Origin: a virus
Reading direction: 5' to 3' (one strand)
Length of the DNA: 22,610 nucleotides
IMG/VR virus record: IMGVR_UViG_3300028393_000360
Coordinates: 1 to 22,610 of that record
Shown: positions 1,047 to 22,610 of the stretch, one piece after another
Layout of the letters: every line of letters starts with the position of its first letter
How positions within the stretch are numbered: position 1 is the first letter of the stretch
Notes under the pieces: generated by a model
Databases searched by the model: none
What the model saw: the letters and a program-made list of their open reading frames with translations, nothing else
Told to the model about the DNA's origin: nothing
Translations under genes and position numbers: made by a program

Positions 1047-1772
1047 ATGAGTTTTGGAAAATCATCATCAACAACAACCCCTACATTAACGCAAGAGCAA
1101 AAAGATCAAATTGCCGCGCAAACAGGGTTTTTTACGGGAACAATAGCACCCACATATACAAATGCTGTTACAGGCGCTACTGATGTTTATAACAAGAATG
1201 TTGGTGGTGTAGTTAACGCAGCACAGAATCTTGCTGGAACAGCAGGACAAGCACAAAACACATTGGGTGAAACTGGTGAGTCAGCATTACGCACAGGCAT
1301 TGGTGGTCTTGAAAGTTTGTTTAGTCCTGACTATGAGAAGAATCAGATTACCGCAGCAATGGGTCCTGCTCAACAACAATATCAACAAAACATTGCTAAT
1401 CAAAAAGCACAGTTTGGTGGTACTGGTAATTTAGGTAGTGCTAGAGAAGCATTAGCAGGACAGCAACTAGCAGGCCAAGCGCAATCATTACAAGCACAAA
1501 CCGCAGCACAAATACAAAATCAAGTTGCTCAACAAAGAGCAGGGGTTGGATCTACACTAGCAAGTTTAGGTCAAGGTGGTATTGGACAAGCATTAGGCGC
1601 TGCAGGTCAACAAGTATCAGCAGCAATGACACCACAACAATTATACAATCAATATGCTAGTGTAATCTTTGGAACACCATCAGCAAGTTATAATCCTGAC
1701 TTTAGAGGTACAGCATCTACTACACAAACTGGATCTAACTTTAATGTCGCTGCCCCGCAAATTAAGTTCTAA
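1047..1772 (+). CDS. Probable internal virion / DNA-ejection protein (Gln/Ala-rich)
   Basis: This is a 241-residue protein very rich in Gln, Ala and Gly, with no signal peptide and no clear enzyme motif. The segment around residues 90-150 (SPDYEKNQITAAM, then AQFGGTGNLGSAREALAGQQ) resembles small ejection or internal virion proteins of short-tailed phages, which tend to be helical and Gln/Ala-rich. This is pattern recognition, not a domain hit. The start at 1047 is preceded by AAAGGA at 8-base spacing. The gene stops 14 bases before the transglycosylase gene, whose Shine-Dalgarno overlaps this gene's stop region, so the two are probably translated from one message. Order and company (transglycosylase, large ejection-like protein) match the ejection modules of podoviruses. 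Confidence 0.55.
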   Translation: MSFGKSSSTTTPTLTQEQKDQIAAQTGFFTGTIAPTYTNAVTGATDVYNKNVGGVVNAAQNLAGTAGQAQNTLGETGESALRTGIGGLESLFSPDYEKNQITAAMGPAQQQYQQNIANQKAQFGGTGNLGSAREALAGQQLAGQAQSLQAQTAAQIQNQVAQQRAGVGSTLASLGQGGIGQALGAAGQQVSAAMTPQQLYNQYASVIFGTPSASYNPDFRGTASTTQTGSNFNVAAPQIKF

Positions 1773-1786
1773 AGGATTATAGATAT

Positions 1787-4336
1787 ATGGCTTATGAAAA
1801 TTATGACGCATTTGGAACTAGTTTAGATACACAAGAAACTGATGAAGAACGCAGACGCAGATTAGAGCAAGAAACGCTAGCACAAAAACCTGTGGCACCA
1901 GTTGCCCCAGAAGATATGGCGCCAAGTGTAGGATCCATGAACAATGTTCAAGATCCTGCGCAACGCCAGCAGGCACAACAAATTGTTCAAAATCAAAATC
2001 AACAAGAACAACAACGGTATCAAGAACAACAATTAGCACAATTACAGCAGCAACAGGCTCAAAGAGAAGCACAAGCAAGAGCAGCACAGCAAGAGCAGCA
2101 ATCAGGACCAGGACCACAGCAAAATCAAGGTGGATTAGGTAATATTAATCAAATAAATAGAAACACACCTACTGCTATGCCATGGCAAGCAGGACAGCCT
2201 GTAGCTGCTCCAGTAAATCCTAATCAACCACAACAAGGTCAACCTGGCACCTACCAAAGAATGTTACAGGCAGAAAGCGGTAATAAAGATTATTACGCTA
2301 ATGGTCAACCAGTAACAAGTACAGCAGGCGCAATGTATGCTGGGCAAGTTATGCCATCAACGGCACGCGACCCGGGTTATGGAGTACAGCCAGCAAAAGA
2401 TGATTCGGCACAAGAATATAACCGTGTTGGTAGAGATTTATTTGCTGTAGCGCAAAAACGATACGGTGATGATGCTAAAGCAGCAGCAGCATATAATGCT
2501 GGATTTAGCCGTGTAGATAACGCACTTAAGCAAGCACAAGCAACTGGTCAAGATTGGCAAACATTCATTCCTAATGAAACTAAAGCATACATTAATAAAG
2601 TAATGGGTGGCCAACAAGCAGCACAAGGTCAACCTGGCCAACCATCACAAGCACAGATAGCAGCATCAAGTCAAGGTGGTATTCCAGCAGCAAATCCTAT
2701 GGGCATGGATATTCAGCAAAGAGTTAATAATTTTCTTGATAAACAAAACGATCTTAACGCACAAATACAAATTCGTGACGATACAAGTAATCCTGAAAGT
2801 TTGCGTAGAAAAGCTGGTGATAGAGCATTTGAACTTTATAGAAATCAATATAATGAACAAAAGGCTACAGCAGCAGTTAAAAGTATGGTAGAAAATGGTG
2901 ATCCAAAAATTCCATCTATCATTACATCAAAGCCTAAGGATGAAGAAGGTAGTTGGATGAAATTAATTCTACTATCATACATCAGTCCACAACTTGCCGG
3001 TGCTGAAGCAATCAAGTTAGGACTTGCTCCAACATCATATAAACCAGTTATGGATAGTCAAGGCAATACTGGTATTGTTAAATTTAGAGTTGATGGCAAA
3101 CCATTAGAAGGTGTTAAAGCCGATGGCACAGCAATGGATTCAAGTGAATTAGCAGCATACTCAAGTATGGGCAATACTAAAAATATTGAAGTTGGCGCTA
3201 CGCCACATCATGGAATAGTTAATGGTGAAGTTCATACATTTGCTACAAGAAAAATAGGTGGTCAATTACAATTTAAGGATTCAAGTATTCCTAATAGTTC
3301 ATGGTCTACACAAGCACCAGAAGGCTTCTCAACACTTGGATATCAAGATCCACAACATGTTAAGGGATTAAACGCAGCAAAAGAAGCAGTTCAACGCATG
3401 GAAAAAGATAACATTGCCGCATCAACTGTTGGTGGAAGACCATTACATACGCAAGCAGAAATTGATGCTGAAAAGAATAAATCATATTATGCGATGACTG
3501 GAAAGCCATTCCCTGGTATGACAGCACCGCAAGCAACAGCACAAGCAGCACCACAAGCAGCGGTTCAGCCTACGCCAATTAATCAAAATACGCAAACAAC
3601 TAATGCTACGCCACAACCAAAAGCAAAATCTATGGCGCAATCTATATTAGATGGTGACATTAGTCCTCCAGCAGGACCTACTACTGGAGCAAAAGCAGCA
3701 TTAACACAAGAAGTATTAAGATTAGCGCAAGAACAGGGAAGAACCTATAATGGTAATGCGTTTAAGATTAAACAAGAATATACCACTGGAACTCCAAGTA
3801 AAACAGTTAATAGTTTGAATACAGCAACATCACATTTAGATACATTAGATAAAGCCGGACAAGCATTACAAAATGGACAAATACAAATAGCAAATACTGT
3901 TACAAATGCTTTAGCAAAACAATTAGGTCAACCTGAAACTTCTAACTTCCAAGATATAGCATATGTTGTTGGTAGTGAGGTGGCAAAAGCAGTTGTTGGT
4001 AGTGGACAATCGGCAGTTCACGATAGAGAAAAAATTGAACAGGCATTTAGCAGTTCAAAGAGTCCAGAACAGTTAGCAGGCACAATTAAGTATTATAAAG
4101 AATTGATGGCTGGACAATTGATGACGCATAAGACACAATGGACATCATCTGGATTAAATCCATCAGAGTTTGATGCTAAATTATTACCAAATACAAGAAC
4201 GCTTGTTTCAGCAACAGCACCTGGCGCGGCGCCTGTGTCAAAATTGTCAGAACAAGATAATCAAGCAATTGAATGGGCAAGACAAAATCCCAATGACCCT
4301 CGTGCGGCTAAAATTAAAAAGCAATTAGGATTATAA
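1787..4336 (+). CDS. Large internal virion protein with lytic transglycosylase (SLT) domain
   Basis: This is an 849-residue protein. Residues 55-115 are an extreme Gln-rich low-complexity stretch. Residues about 155-275 look like a soluble lytic transglycosylase fold: QAESGNKDY with probable catalytic Glu163, GAMYAGQVMPSTARDPG (181-197) and AAAYNAG (233-239). Such enzymes cleave the MurNAc-GlcNAc bond of peptidoglycan; in virions they open a local hole for DNA entry, as T7 gp16 does. The C-terminal 250 residues contain a helical region (around SLNTATSHLDTLDKAGQAL) and a tail (LSEQDNQAIEWARQNPNDP) that I associate with other phage virion proteins, supporting an ejection role over lysis. There is no signal peptide. 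Shine-Dalgarno AAAGGA lies at 1771-1776. The next gene starts 2 bases after the stop. Confidence 0.8.
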   Translation: MAYENYDAFGTSLDTQETDEERRRRLEQETLAQKPVAPVAPEDMAPSVGSMNNVQDPAQRQQAQQIVQNQNQQEQQRYQEQQLAQLQQQQAQREAQARAAQQEQQSGPGPQQNQGGLGNINQINRNTPTAMPWQAGQPVAAPVNPNQPQQGQPGTYQRMLQAESGNKDYYANGQPVTSTAGAMYAGQVMPSTARDPGYGVQPAKDDSAQEYNRVGRDLFAVAQKRYGDDAKAAAAYNAGFSRVDNALKQAQATGQDWQTFIPNETKAYINKVMGGQQAAQGQPGQPSQAQIAASSQGGIPAANPMGMDIQQRVNNFLDKQNDLNAQIQIRDDTSNPESLRRKAGDRAFELYRNQYNEQKATAAVKSMVENGDPKIPSIITSKPKDEEGSWMKLILLSYISPQLAGAEAIKLGLAPTSYKPVMDSQGNTGIVKFRVDGKPLEGVKADGTAMDSSELAAYSSMGNTKNIEVGATPHHGIVNGEVHTFATRKIGGQLQFKDSSIPNSSWSTQAPEGFSTLGYQDPQHVKGLNAAKEAVQRMEKDNIAASTVGGRPLHTQAEIDAEKNKSYYAMTGKPFPGMTAPQATAQAAPQAAVQPTPINQNTQTTNATPQPKAKSMAQSILDGDISPPAGPTTGAKAALTQEVLRLAQEQGRTYNGNAFKIKQEYTTGTPSKTVNSLNTATSHLDTLDKAGQALQNGQIQIANTVTNALAKQLGQPETSNFQDIAYVVGSEVAKAVVGSGQSAVHDREKIEQAFSSSKSPEQLAGTIKYYKELMAGQLMTHKTQWTSSGLNPSEFDAKLLPNTRTLVSATAPGAAPVSKLSEQDNQAIEWARQNPNDPRAAKIKKQLGL

Positions 4337-4338
4337 GA

Positions 4339-6933
4339 ATGGCTGATTTTAATCCTGACGCATATCTAGCAGAAAAAGATAAGGAAAAGGCTTTTGATCC
4401 CGATGCTTATCTAAAACAATCTGAACCTAAATCAAATAGAGAAGATTGGTTTCAAAAATCTATTGTTGAAAATCCTATAACAAAAACACTAACCGCTGCC
4501 GGCATGGGAGCAGGACATACTGTATCTAATCTTGTAGGTGGCGGAATAGATTTAGTAGGTAAGGGAGTTGGAGCAGTAAGTCCGTCTACTGGTAAAGCAA
4601 TACAAGATTTCGCAGCAAGAAACAATCAATTTTCAGATGAATGGAATAGTGAATATCAAAAACAATCACCTATTCCTAACTATATTGGGCAAGCGGCTGG
4701 ATATATGGTTCCATTTGCTCCCGCAGCAAAAGCAGTTAATGCTGTTGTGCCAGCGGCAACAAGTTTAGGTCGTGTAGGACAAGCAGCGATTGCTGGCGGT
4801 GCGATTGGTGCTGTAGGTACACCAGGTGGGGTAGGTGAACGAGCAAAAGAAGCAGGAATTCAAGGTAGTATGGCCGCTGGCGGTCAATTATTATTGCCAT
4901 GGTTAGGTGGTGTTGTTAAAGGTGCGTATAACAAATTTAATAATATAGATCCTGCGAGAATGTATAATATGAGTAGTGGTTTACCTGATAGTGGGTTTCC
5001 TGTAAGTTCAGGAGCAAATCCACAAAATGTACCAATGCCACCAGAAGTTGCTCAAGCATATCCTAAAACACCATCTGTTCCATTACCTGGTACAGCAGGT
5101 GAACAAACTGGCGCAAGATTATATGATTATGCTACAAGTTTGCGTCCATGGGCTGACTTAATTGCTGGTCCACATGTATCAGGAATTACTGGGCCTGTTG
5201 GACATCTTGTAGGTGAAATTCCAGCATTAAAAAATGTGCCTGGTTTTAATAGTGAATCATTACCACAAATAGGTATTAAAGCAGTTAAAGAAGGATTACA
5301 AAGTCAAAAACTTCAAGGTATGATGCCGCGAGCAGCAGGACCAGTTAGTCCCGGATTGCCTCCAGCGCAGCAATCACAGCAAGAAGCAGCAAACATGGTA
5401 AACAAAAGCGGACCAAATGCCGGTCCGCCAAATCCTCCTGGGACAACTATAGCACCTGTTCCAGGAATATCGCCTGAACAGCAAGCAAGATGGAATCAAA
5501 CTCCCGGATACGCAGCGCCAGCTGGTGAACCTCCAGTGCCAGGAAATGTAGCACCTGAATCACTACCACCACCGCCACCAGCACCTCCACCGCCTCCAGA
5601 GCCAGTGGTAATGCCTCCGCCAGAAGTTGCGCCAGTTAATGAACCGGTTAAGCAGGCAAAAGAACAATTATTATCTACTGATCCAACATTAGAAAGATAT
5701 ACACAAGATTATGTTGTGCCAGAACATGTTGAACCAGGCATTAATGATTTTGTTAATGGCACCGCAAAAAACACATTAGCATATGGACCACCTGGTACAG
5801 GCAAAACAAGTTTAGCAGGTGAATGGATAAATAAAAACGCTGACGGTAGAATTGAAACAGTTCATAGCAAATCAACATTACAGGATGTTAAGGCAATTAA
5901 TGATAGATTAAACACTAATGGTAAAACATTAGTGTTAGTTGATGAAATAGATAAACTCGCACAAACCAATCCTAAAGCAGCAAAATATATTAGTGATACT
6001 TTAGGTAATCATCCTACCTCACAAATATTATACACTACTAATGATGTTAGCAAAGTTCCGGAAGCAATACGCAATACAACAACTCAACTTAATTTAGATC
6101 CTAAATTAACATTACAGCAAAAGCAGGCGTATGGTTTAAGTATTGCTGAAAAATATGGAACTAATAAAACACCAGAAGAAATTCAAAAGATAGCAAAAGA
6201 TAGTGCTAATTTTAGAGATATTAAACGACAGGTAACTGAAGGTATTCAGTTAAAACAAGAATCACCTTTTTCAAATCCCTATTCATTAGATAATGTTAAT
6301 TTACCTGACCCAGTTAAAACTACAATAGATAATACATTAAACAATCGCAGCAGTAAAAATCTTGTTATTTTTGATAAGAGTGTTTATGATATCAATCCAA
6401 ACTTTAGTAACGAGTTGGATAAATTAATGCCAACAACTTCAATGGAACAATTACATCATGTAACAAGAAATTTAACTAGTGGCAATATAATGAGTCCTTC
6501 ATTTAGGTTAAAAATTCAAGATACCGGTGACGCTAATAATATTAGTTCACTTAAAGGTTTAATGGAAAGAAGCAATGAATCTCGCCATCCAACTAATTTA
6601 GTAATTGAAGATAAGTTTGGTAAATTAGATCCAGCAATATATAGTAGAGCAAATATTATAACAGCAGAAGATTTAGGATTGGTTGTGCCTAAGGCAGCAA
6701 AATCTAAAACACCTAAAGCACCTAAAAATGTAAGTCAAATGTTGACTGATGACCAAGCAAGAACTTTTAATGGTATAAAATCAGCAGGAGAAAGTGAATT
6801 TGAACAAAAAATTGCCTCTATCCCGCAAGTTCATAGAGATGTTATTGAACAGGGTTTGCGTAAATTAAATAATCCAAATGATCCATTGATCAAGCACCAT
6901 TTAGATATACTAGAAAAATATAGGATTAAATAA
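4339..6933 (+). CDS. Ejection-type virion protein fused to an AAA+ ATPase module
   Basis: This is an 864-residue protein in three parts. Residues 1-200 carry two copies of F(N/D)PDAYL (4-10 and 19-25), then Gly/Ala-rich hydrophobic segments (about 50-80, 115-195) like large phage ejection proteins. Residues 340-435 are Pro-rich, with a near poly-Pro run at 410-422. Residues about 450-640 form an AAA+ P-loop ATPase: Walker A GPPGTGKT (483-490), Walker B LVLVDEID (531-538), sensor-1-like YTTND (565-569), possible arginine finger R578 and a sensor-2-like FRDIKRQV (625-632), most like clamp-loader/RuvB types. Residues 674-772 may be a degenerate second AAA-like half. The frame is intact and all three parts are co-linear, so this looks like a true fusion. 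Its place after the transglycosylase suggests virion incorporation. The ATPase function is confident; its role in the virion is unknown. Confidence 0.75.
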   Translation: MADFNPDAYLAEKDKEKAFDPDAYLKQSEPKSNREDWFQKSIVENPITKTLTAAGMGAGHTVSNLVGGGIDLVGKGVGAVSPSTGKAIQDFAARNNQFSDEWNSEYQKQSPIPNYIGQAAGYMVPFAPAAKAVNAVVPAATSLGRVGQAAIAGGAIGAVGTPGGVGERAKEAGIQGSMAAGGQLLLPWLGGVVKGAYNKFNNIDPARMYNMSSGLPDSGFPVSSGANPQNVPMPPEVAQAYPKTPSVPLPGTAGEQTGARLYDYATSLRPWADLIAGPHVSGITGPVGHLVGEIPALKNVPGFNSESLPQIGIKAVKEGLQSQKLQGMMPRAAGPVSPGLPPAQQSQQEAANMVNKSGPNAGPPNPPGTTIAPVPGISPEQQARWNQTPGYAAPAGEPPVPGNVAPESLPPPPPAPPPPPEPVVMPPPEVAPVNEPVKQAKEQLLSTDPTLERYTQDYVVPEHVEPGINDFVNGTAKNTLAYGPPGTGKTSLAGEWINKNADGRIETVHSKSTLQDVKAINDRLNTNGKTLVLVDEIDKLAQTNPKAAKYISDTLGNHPTSQILYTTNDVSKVPEAIRNTTTQLNLDPKLTLQQKQAYGLSIAEKYGTNKTPEEIQKIAKDSANFRDIKRQVTEGIQLKQESPFSNPYSLDNVNLPDPVKTTIDNTLNNRSSKNLVIFDKSVYDINPNFSNELDKLMPTTSMEQLHHVTRNLTSGNIMSPSFRLKIQDTGDANNISSLKGLMERSNESRHPTNLVIEDKFGKLDPAIYSRANIITAEDLGLVVPKAAKSKTPKAPKNVSQMLTDDQARTFNGIKSAGESEFEQKIASIPQVHRDVIEQGLRKLNNPNDPLIKHHLDILEKYRIK
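6926..6933 (+). promoter_or_regulatory. TAAATA-like motif overlapping a stop codon (TTAAATAA)
   Basis: TTAAATAA contains the stop codon of the AAA+ fusion gene and lies 4 bases before the ATG of the Dps-like gene at 6938. Because the stop codon supplies part of the match, this is the weakest member of the motif set. Confidence 0.2.
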
Positions 6934-7427: not shown

Positions 7428-7937
7428 CTAATTGGCAGGAGTGGCTTGTGTCGTGCTTACTTTTTTATATGCGTAACTACCCCGAACATCATAACCCGCT
7501 TTCTTATGTAGTTTTAGAAAGCCATCTTGGTCTTTACGCATAGTTGTTGAACAGATAATACTAACATTACAAGATTTTGCCCAACTTTCCCACAAATTAA
7601 TCATGTCAACAACTAACTTAACTTTTGTTCTTACAGGTAACTGTAAATCTATGTGTGCCATTCGCACCAAAATCATCTCGTCATCGGACCATGATGCTTT
7701 TTCACCACGAACGCACCAAGTATATGCTAGTAATTTGTTATTTTCGTCAATTGCGACGGAGAGTAATTGAGATAGAGGGCCATAGAATTGATTTACTACA
7801 GCAAGTGTGATATTTCGTCCGTAGATTACGGGTTCAGGGGTAAAGATATTGTCAATTTCGTTTTGAAAATGAGTTTCAGCCATACGAACGATGTTATCAA
7901 CATCAAATCCGTTAGCGGGTCGCCAATTGTAGTTCAT
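7428..7937 (-). CDS. GNAT-like N-acetyltransferase, antisense to all neighbours
   Basis: This is a 169-residue protein read on the minus strand. Its layout matches small phage GNAT acetyltransferases: N-terminal helix (FDVDNIVRMAETHF), strand pair LLSVAIDENNKLLAYTWCV (58-76), a long helix around 103-122 (KLVVDMINLWESWAKS), strand NVSIICSTT (124-132) and C-terminal GFLKLHKKAGYDVRGSYAYK (139-158). GNATs move an acetyl group from acetyl-CoA to an amine. The usual acetyl-CoA pyrophosphate loop (R/Q-x-x-G-x-G/A) is not intact: the site reads LPVRTKVKL (100-108) without the glycines. It may bind differently or be inactive; the substrate is unknown. Start ATG at 7937 is preceded on its strand by AGAAAGGC. 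It is the only minus-strand gene here and has its own upstream TAAATA-type motif, so it is probably separately transcribed. Confidence 0.68.
   Translation of the reverse strand: MNYNWRPANGFDVDNIVRMAETHFQNEIDNIFTPEPVIYGRNITLAVVNQFYGPLSQLLSVAIDENNKLLAYTWCVRGEKASWSDDEMILVRMAHIDLQLPVRTKVKLVVDMINLWESWAKSCNVSIICSTTMRKDQDGFLKLHKKAGYDVRGSYAYKKVSTTQATPAN

Positions 7938-17712: not shown

Positions 17713-22610
<4,898 letters not shown>

Follow-up and report, generated by a model that had tools for sequence, protein, structure and literature searches.

Short-tailed phages have to pass DNA and proteins through a transient channel, and the roles of the ejected proteins once inside are poorly known. P1 DarB, a virion component with a known antirestriction role, shields the DNA once it is inside and has a SWI2/SNF2 ATPase; SWI2/SNF2 ATPases also occur in some of the polyvalent proteins encoded by phages and mobile elements (PMC5512222). 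The term AAA is absent from the main text of that paper (PMC5512222), and neither ATP nor ATPase occurs in the text of a review of ejection proteins (PMC8954989). In phage SU10, gp20-24 are encoded after the tail genes; virions contain them, and they are gone once the genome has been released (PMC9509320). An earlier sequence-only reading of the locus analyzed here held that an NTPase is usually missing from large ejection proteins, a generalization that omits P1 DarB and the polyvalent SWI2/SNF2 ATPases (PMC5512222).

The DNA that was analyzed, hereafter the window, is an IMG/VR virus record of 22,610 bases and represents a fragment. Its portal protein matches Pfam SU10_portal (E=1e-47) and its major capsid protein matches Pfam SU10_MCP (E=9e-33); the carrier of the gene under study, gene X, is probably an SU10-type short-tailed phage. 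Near both window ends (1-476 and 18877-22563) are fibre genes with collagen-like G-X-Y repeats. Gene X and its neighbours are arranged as follows:

1047..1772, + strand: 241-aa ejection-like protein, with a match to PHROG 'DNA ejection protein' in one member of its family (E=7e-12)
1787..4336, + strand: 849-aa virion protein with an SLT transglycosylase domain (Pfam, PHROG)
4339..6933, + strand: gene X with the AAA+ module, 864 aa; a single ORF, with an identical protein in contig L001
6938..7369, + strand: Dps-like gene, directly after X in the relatives examined

Relatives were obtained by a terminase search of viral contigs, which returned 80 with terminase identities of 82-100%, and 34 loci found via the Dps-like gene supplied further X genes. 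Wherever the upstream sequence suffices, the genes come in one order: a fibre gene, then the 241-aa ejection-like protein, the transglycosylase, X, the Dps-like gene, an opposite-strand gene (with exceptions), small genes, terminase and portal. This synteny of the cassette holds in dozens of relatives. The opposite-strand gene (7428-7937, - strand), which lies within the structural region in most relatives, is GNAT-like by appearance only and has no Pfam match. Among members of the two families upstream of X there are matches to the PHROGs 'DNA ejection protein', 'internal virion protein with endolysin domain' and 'released from the phage upon host infection'. The position of X within an ejection gene cassette is thus directly supported by synteny, by the PHROGs of its neighbours and by the SU10 gene map, which fits the ejection-type protein proposed earlier.

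Gene X is one fused gene. The intact 864-residue frame of the sequence-only reading is borne out by the ORF at 4339-6933 and by L001, a second IMG/VR contig of which 14,298 bases align to the window with 5 mismatches, none of them in gene X, and whose encoded X is identical in protein to that of the window. The protein is laid out as follows:

4339..4413, + strand: N-terminal tag, aa 1-25, with two F[ND]PDAYL copies (4-10, 19-25)
4432..5325, + strand: Gly/Ala-rich body, aa 32-329; 56% identity to the X of L063
5359..5670, + strand: Pro-rich linker, aa 341-444; 31% Pro, with a Pro-rich stretch around 410-422
5671..6258, + strand: AAA+ domain D1, aa 445-640 (RecA-like core ~456-600 plus lid), of predicted clamp-loader/RFC type
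6259..6693, + strand: region without family match, aa 641-785
6715..6930, + strand: C-terminal tail NVSQML...KYRIK, aa 793-864; common to L049, L064, L062, L088, L039 and L087

A break at residues 340-450, raised earlier as the sign of two separate genes, was not found, and 12 other long relatives run uninterrupted from body and linker into the C-terminal part. In relatives with a short X, the gene adjoins the Dps-like gene directly, and a detached second gene is absent. Near the AAA+ module of the window X, no internal start preceded by a Shine-Dalgarno sequence was found. GC3 is equal across the gene (0.147 in the N-terminal half, 0.143 in D1); overall GC is lower in the C-terminal half, but it also falls to a similar extent in the last third of X in most relatives. 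A recent foreign insertion, as judged by composition, was therefore rejected. That X is an assembly chimera, or a frameshift merging two genes, would fit the restriction of the fusion to one lineage, but the identical protein in L001 with no nucleotide differences in X, the even GC3 and the shared tail beyond the AAA+ domain make this barely credible.

The AAA+ domain is the sole domain recognised in X by Pfam, PHROG and other profile searches, and no convincing PHROG or Pfam match was obtained outside it. Residues 1-440 had no significant match to Pfam or PHROG families (the best PHROG, of unknown function, reached E=0.037), and the 'ejection-like' N-terminus of the sequence-only reading is a judgement, since this part matches no known ejection family. 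The hydrophobic stretches described with it are mild: the top 19-residue Kyte-Doolittle mean is 1.15, and no clear transmembrane segment was found by this measure. Membrane-spanning segments are expected in ejection proteins resembling gp14 and gp16. Comparison of X with known ejection proteins (Pfam, PHROG, SU10 gp20-24) gave no credible sequence homology; as ejection proteins diverge quickly in sequence, this missing homology is weak evidence. Because X has no family match outside the AAA+ domain, we infer its ejection role from its position. The lack of an ejection-family match and the weak hydrophobicity would also suit a non-ejected head or tail structural protein in which the AAA+ domain has an unrelated role. 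We consider this quite improbable, given that X always follows the transglycosylase protein and that the ejection genes of SU10 occupy an equivalent block (PMC9509320).

Every motif of the sequence-only reading (the tag copies, Walker A, Walker B, TTND and FRDIKR) is present, with Walker A and Walker B at exactly the residues that it gave. The motifs of D1, together with the arginine-finger position of clamp loaders, are:

5785..5808, + strand: Walker A GPPGTGKT, 483-490
5929..5952, + strand: Walker B LVLVDEID, 531-538
6034..6045, + strand: sensor-1 TTND, 566-569, in register with sensor 1 of the clamp loaders
6073..6081, + strand: clamp-loader SRC arginine-finger position, which reads NTT in the alignments, 579-581
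6211..6228, + strand: sensor-2-like FRDIKR, 625-630; clamp loaders have FPDxR

D1 has the features of the AAA+ superfamily, namely Walker A, Walker B (DE), an intact sensor-1 Asn and a RecA-like core fold, and that it is a true AAA+ domain, as first suggested by its motifs, is directly supported by Pfam, PHROG, our own profile and predicted-fold matches. The Pfam AAA match has E=3e-8 (34.5 bits against a curated cut-off of 21.2). The best PHROGs for X are clamp loaders of DNA polymerase (11838 and 168, E ~1e-11), the best NCBIfam model for its AAA+ domain is the RFC large subunit, and residues 456-588 match a profile that we built on nine clamp-loader-like proteins of phages (E=1e-15), with hhalign concurring. 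In an AlphaFold2 prediction with clamp-loader rows, the core of D1 has pLDDT values mostly of 75-89, and the best structural matches of the model are RFC subunits (Z ~16 over 133 residues). A model built without an alignment was poor, and the fold evidence leans on the clamp-loader rows; since these rows may guide the AlphaFold2 model, the family assignment is carried by the sequence evidence. By these comparisons, the AAA+ core of X most probably belongs to the clamp-loader (gp44/RFC) group. PADLOC defence matches to X reflected the P-loop only and were not meaningful.

The description of this core as complete is accurate for Walker A, Walker B, sensor 1 and the AAA+ fold, but not for the SRC arginine finger of the nearest family, which is replaced. 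Where clamp loaders have QSRCQ, X has IRNTTT in the alignments; the SRC motif is absent, and R578 sits one residue ahead of its position (NTT). With this arginine finger lost, a conventional homo-oligomeric ring motor becomes less likely and ATP hydrolysis by the predicted ATPase uncertain. It is very improbable, in our estimate, that the AAA+ module forms an ATP-powered ejectosome component, that is, an ejected part of the channel that pulls or ratchets DNA by ATP, or that puts a sliding clamp on the DNA during entry or takes one off it.

Downstream of D1, no significant match was found for residues 641-785 against the clamp-loader collar, in Pfam or by profile comparison. A degenerate second AAA domain in this region, for which LDPAIYSRANI is suggestive by eye, was rejected: 0.44 of shuffles reached its local-alignment score to D1, Pfam returned nothing and an alignment-free model was poor.

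With that of the window included, there are 49 distinct X sequences of up to 864 aa, four of them truncated at a contig end; complete ones start at 213 aa. The tail of the window X (797-864) has 36-54% identity to those of L049, L062, L088, L064 and L039, while a tandem tag like its own is found in L034, L015 and L078, other X genes having unrelated short tags. The X of L063 has its body in common with the window X, yet a different tail (common to L050 and L092) and a module in common with L039. As tag, body, module and tail are shared independently among relatives, these parts reassort, with the AAA+ domain occupying the module slot. X is thus a mosaic in which an N-terminal tag and a body are followed by a Pro-rich linker, a swappable C-terminal module and a short tail. 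It is best explained as a third, highly variable member of the ejection cassette, in which the AAA+ domain fills the slot between the Pro-rich linker and the conserved short tail.

The slot of L039 (L039:3689-6097) and L063 (L063:3964-6261) contains an exchangeable module of ~120-170 aa with VLLGYA/VLLGMA and TQEQVIRMMYxELTGKK and no family match. The first 60 aa of X genes contain at least seven unrelated short tag patterns, several of them in tandem (e.g. L034:4193, L056:4732 and L087:416). These patterns are confined to X and absent from the other ORFs of the scanned loci. The tags could be packaging or ejection signals; a general packaging signal was rejected, as the patterns occur in X alone and no second protein supports it.

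Two further interpretations of the AAA+ module were considered. The module might be a nucleotide-binding but inactive pseudo-ATPase that serves as a spacer, a DNA- or clamp-binding element or a decoy; the change of the SRC arginine finger to NTT and the altered sensor 2 point this way, as do the short modules without a convincing enzyme match that the slot holds in other X genes. With Walker A, Walker B (DE) and the sensor-1 Asn intact, we regard this as unlikely. AAA+ proteins are commonly chaperones, ATP is present during assembly and a long linker could be cleaved, so the module may instead work only while the particle is built, as a chaperone of assembly that is joined to an internal protein and is cleaved off or idle in the virion. 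Walker A is found in the window X only, however, the other 48 X sequences being without it, and since the tail shared with relatives lies C-terminal of the AAA+ domain, cleavage would take with it a segment that the cassette homologues conserve. An assembly chaperone is therefore doubtful.

A search with the whole of X at an E threshold of 1e-5 found no match in 50,697 phage records, and among viral contigs L001 alone matched. No X relatives were found in bacterial and archaeal genomes by scans that reach close relatives only. Terminase, Dps, tail-pattern, body and AAA scans revealed no other X with an AAA+ domain; the rarity scans reach close relatives or sharers of exact patterns, and more distant fusions could escape them. 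The fusion of X and AAA+ was seen in one lineage, represented by two near-identical contigs. The fused architecture described in the sequence-only reading is absent from the phage records and, within the reach of the scans, present elsewhere in the viral collection in the near-identical contig only.

Among the matches listed in a scan of viral contigs with the clamp-loader alignment, most were stand-alone clamp loaders and a few were other AAA proteins. Of 26 related contigs, one encodes a match to the PHROG clamp-loader family; the protein stands alone and is not similar to D1 by BLAST. Since relatives as a rule have no detectable clamp-loader gene, the AAA+ domain cannot be explained simply as a replication gene of the clade that has moved. 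The contig of L069 encodes a stand-alone AAA protein of 292 aa (L144:1309-2187), followed by two short, related-looking ORFs. This protein was considered as a stand-alone donor gene from the same clade and rejected, as it has no BLAST match to D1.

Our main reading, to which we tentatively give a probability of roughly 0.48, is that X, a modular protein of the ejection cassette, acquired a clamp-loader-type AAA+ domain as a C-terminal payload, and that it is packaged, ejected and active in the host. For packaging, ejection, ATP binding and hydrolysis, and the target, we infer the following course. X would be carried in the head and ejected along with the other internal proteins; its N-terminal half would join or follow the ejection channel, and the flexible linker would leave the AAA+ module in the host cytoplasm. 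There the module would bind ATP, perhaps hydrolyzing it, and act early in infection, either on the DNA as it enters or on a host protein of DNA handling or defence. An exchangeable C-terminal module in a syntenic gene suggests that the slot is a cargo carrier, and the modules may be swappable cargo delivered with the DNA. An AAA+ domain in this slot offers a biochemically testable activity.

SU10 and its gp20-24 resemble this locus in gene order and cassette position, in the SU10-type portal and capsid and in a transglycosylase ejection protein, but the SU10 text consulted describes no AAA+ ejection protein (PMC9509320), and gp20-24 have no credible sequence similarity to X. The T7 gp14/gp15/gp16 ejectosome is likewise an ejection-protein set with mosaic, swappable domains, such as a transglycosylase (PMC8954989), whereas none of our profile searches linked X to a T7-type family. 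T4 gp44-like clamp loader small subunits (PHROG 168, 11838) share with X the RecA-like core, Walker A and B, sensor 1 and the N-terminal box before Walker A; in contrast to these stand-alone proteins, the AAA+ domain of X is fused inside an ejection-cassette gene and is without the SRC motif or a confirmed collar. The polyvalent proteins, with P1 DarB as prototype, are like X multidomain and modular, with proposed entry together with the DNA and, in some, an ATPase (PMC5512222). Their ATPases are SWI2/SNF2 and related helicases (PMC5512222), whereas that of X is probably of clamp-loader-type AAA+. A DarB-like protein would combine at least two of the described effector domains in a single injected chain; in X, Pfam, PHROG and other profiles recognised the AAA+ domain and no other polyvalent domain. 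By analogy, polyvalent proteins are the nearest concept for X, and a clamp-loader-type AAA+ domain would join the ATPases known from proteins that may accompany the DNA of a phage.
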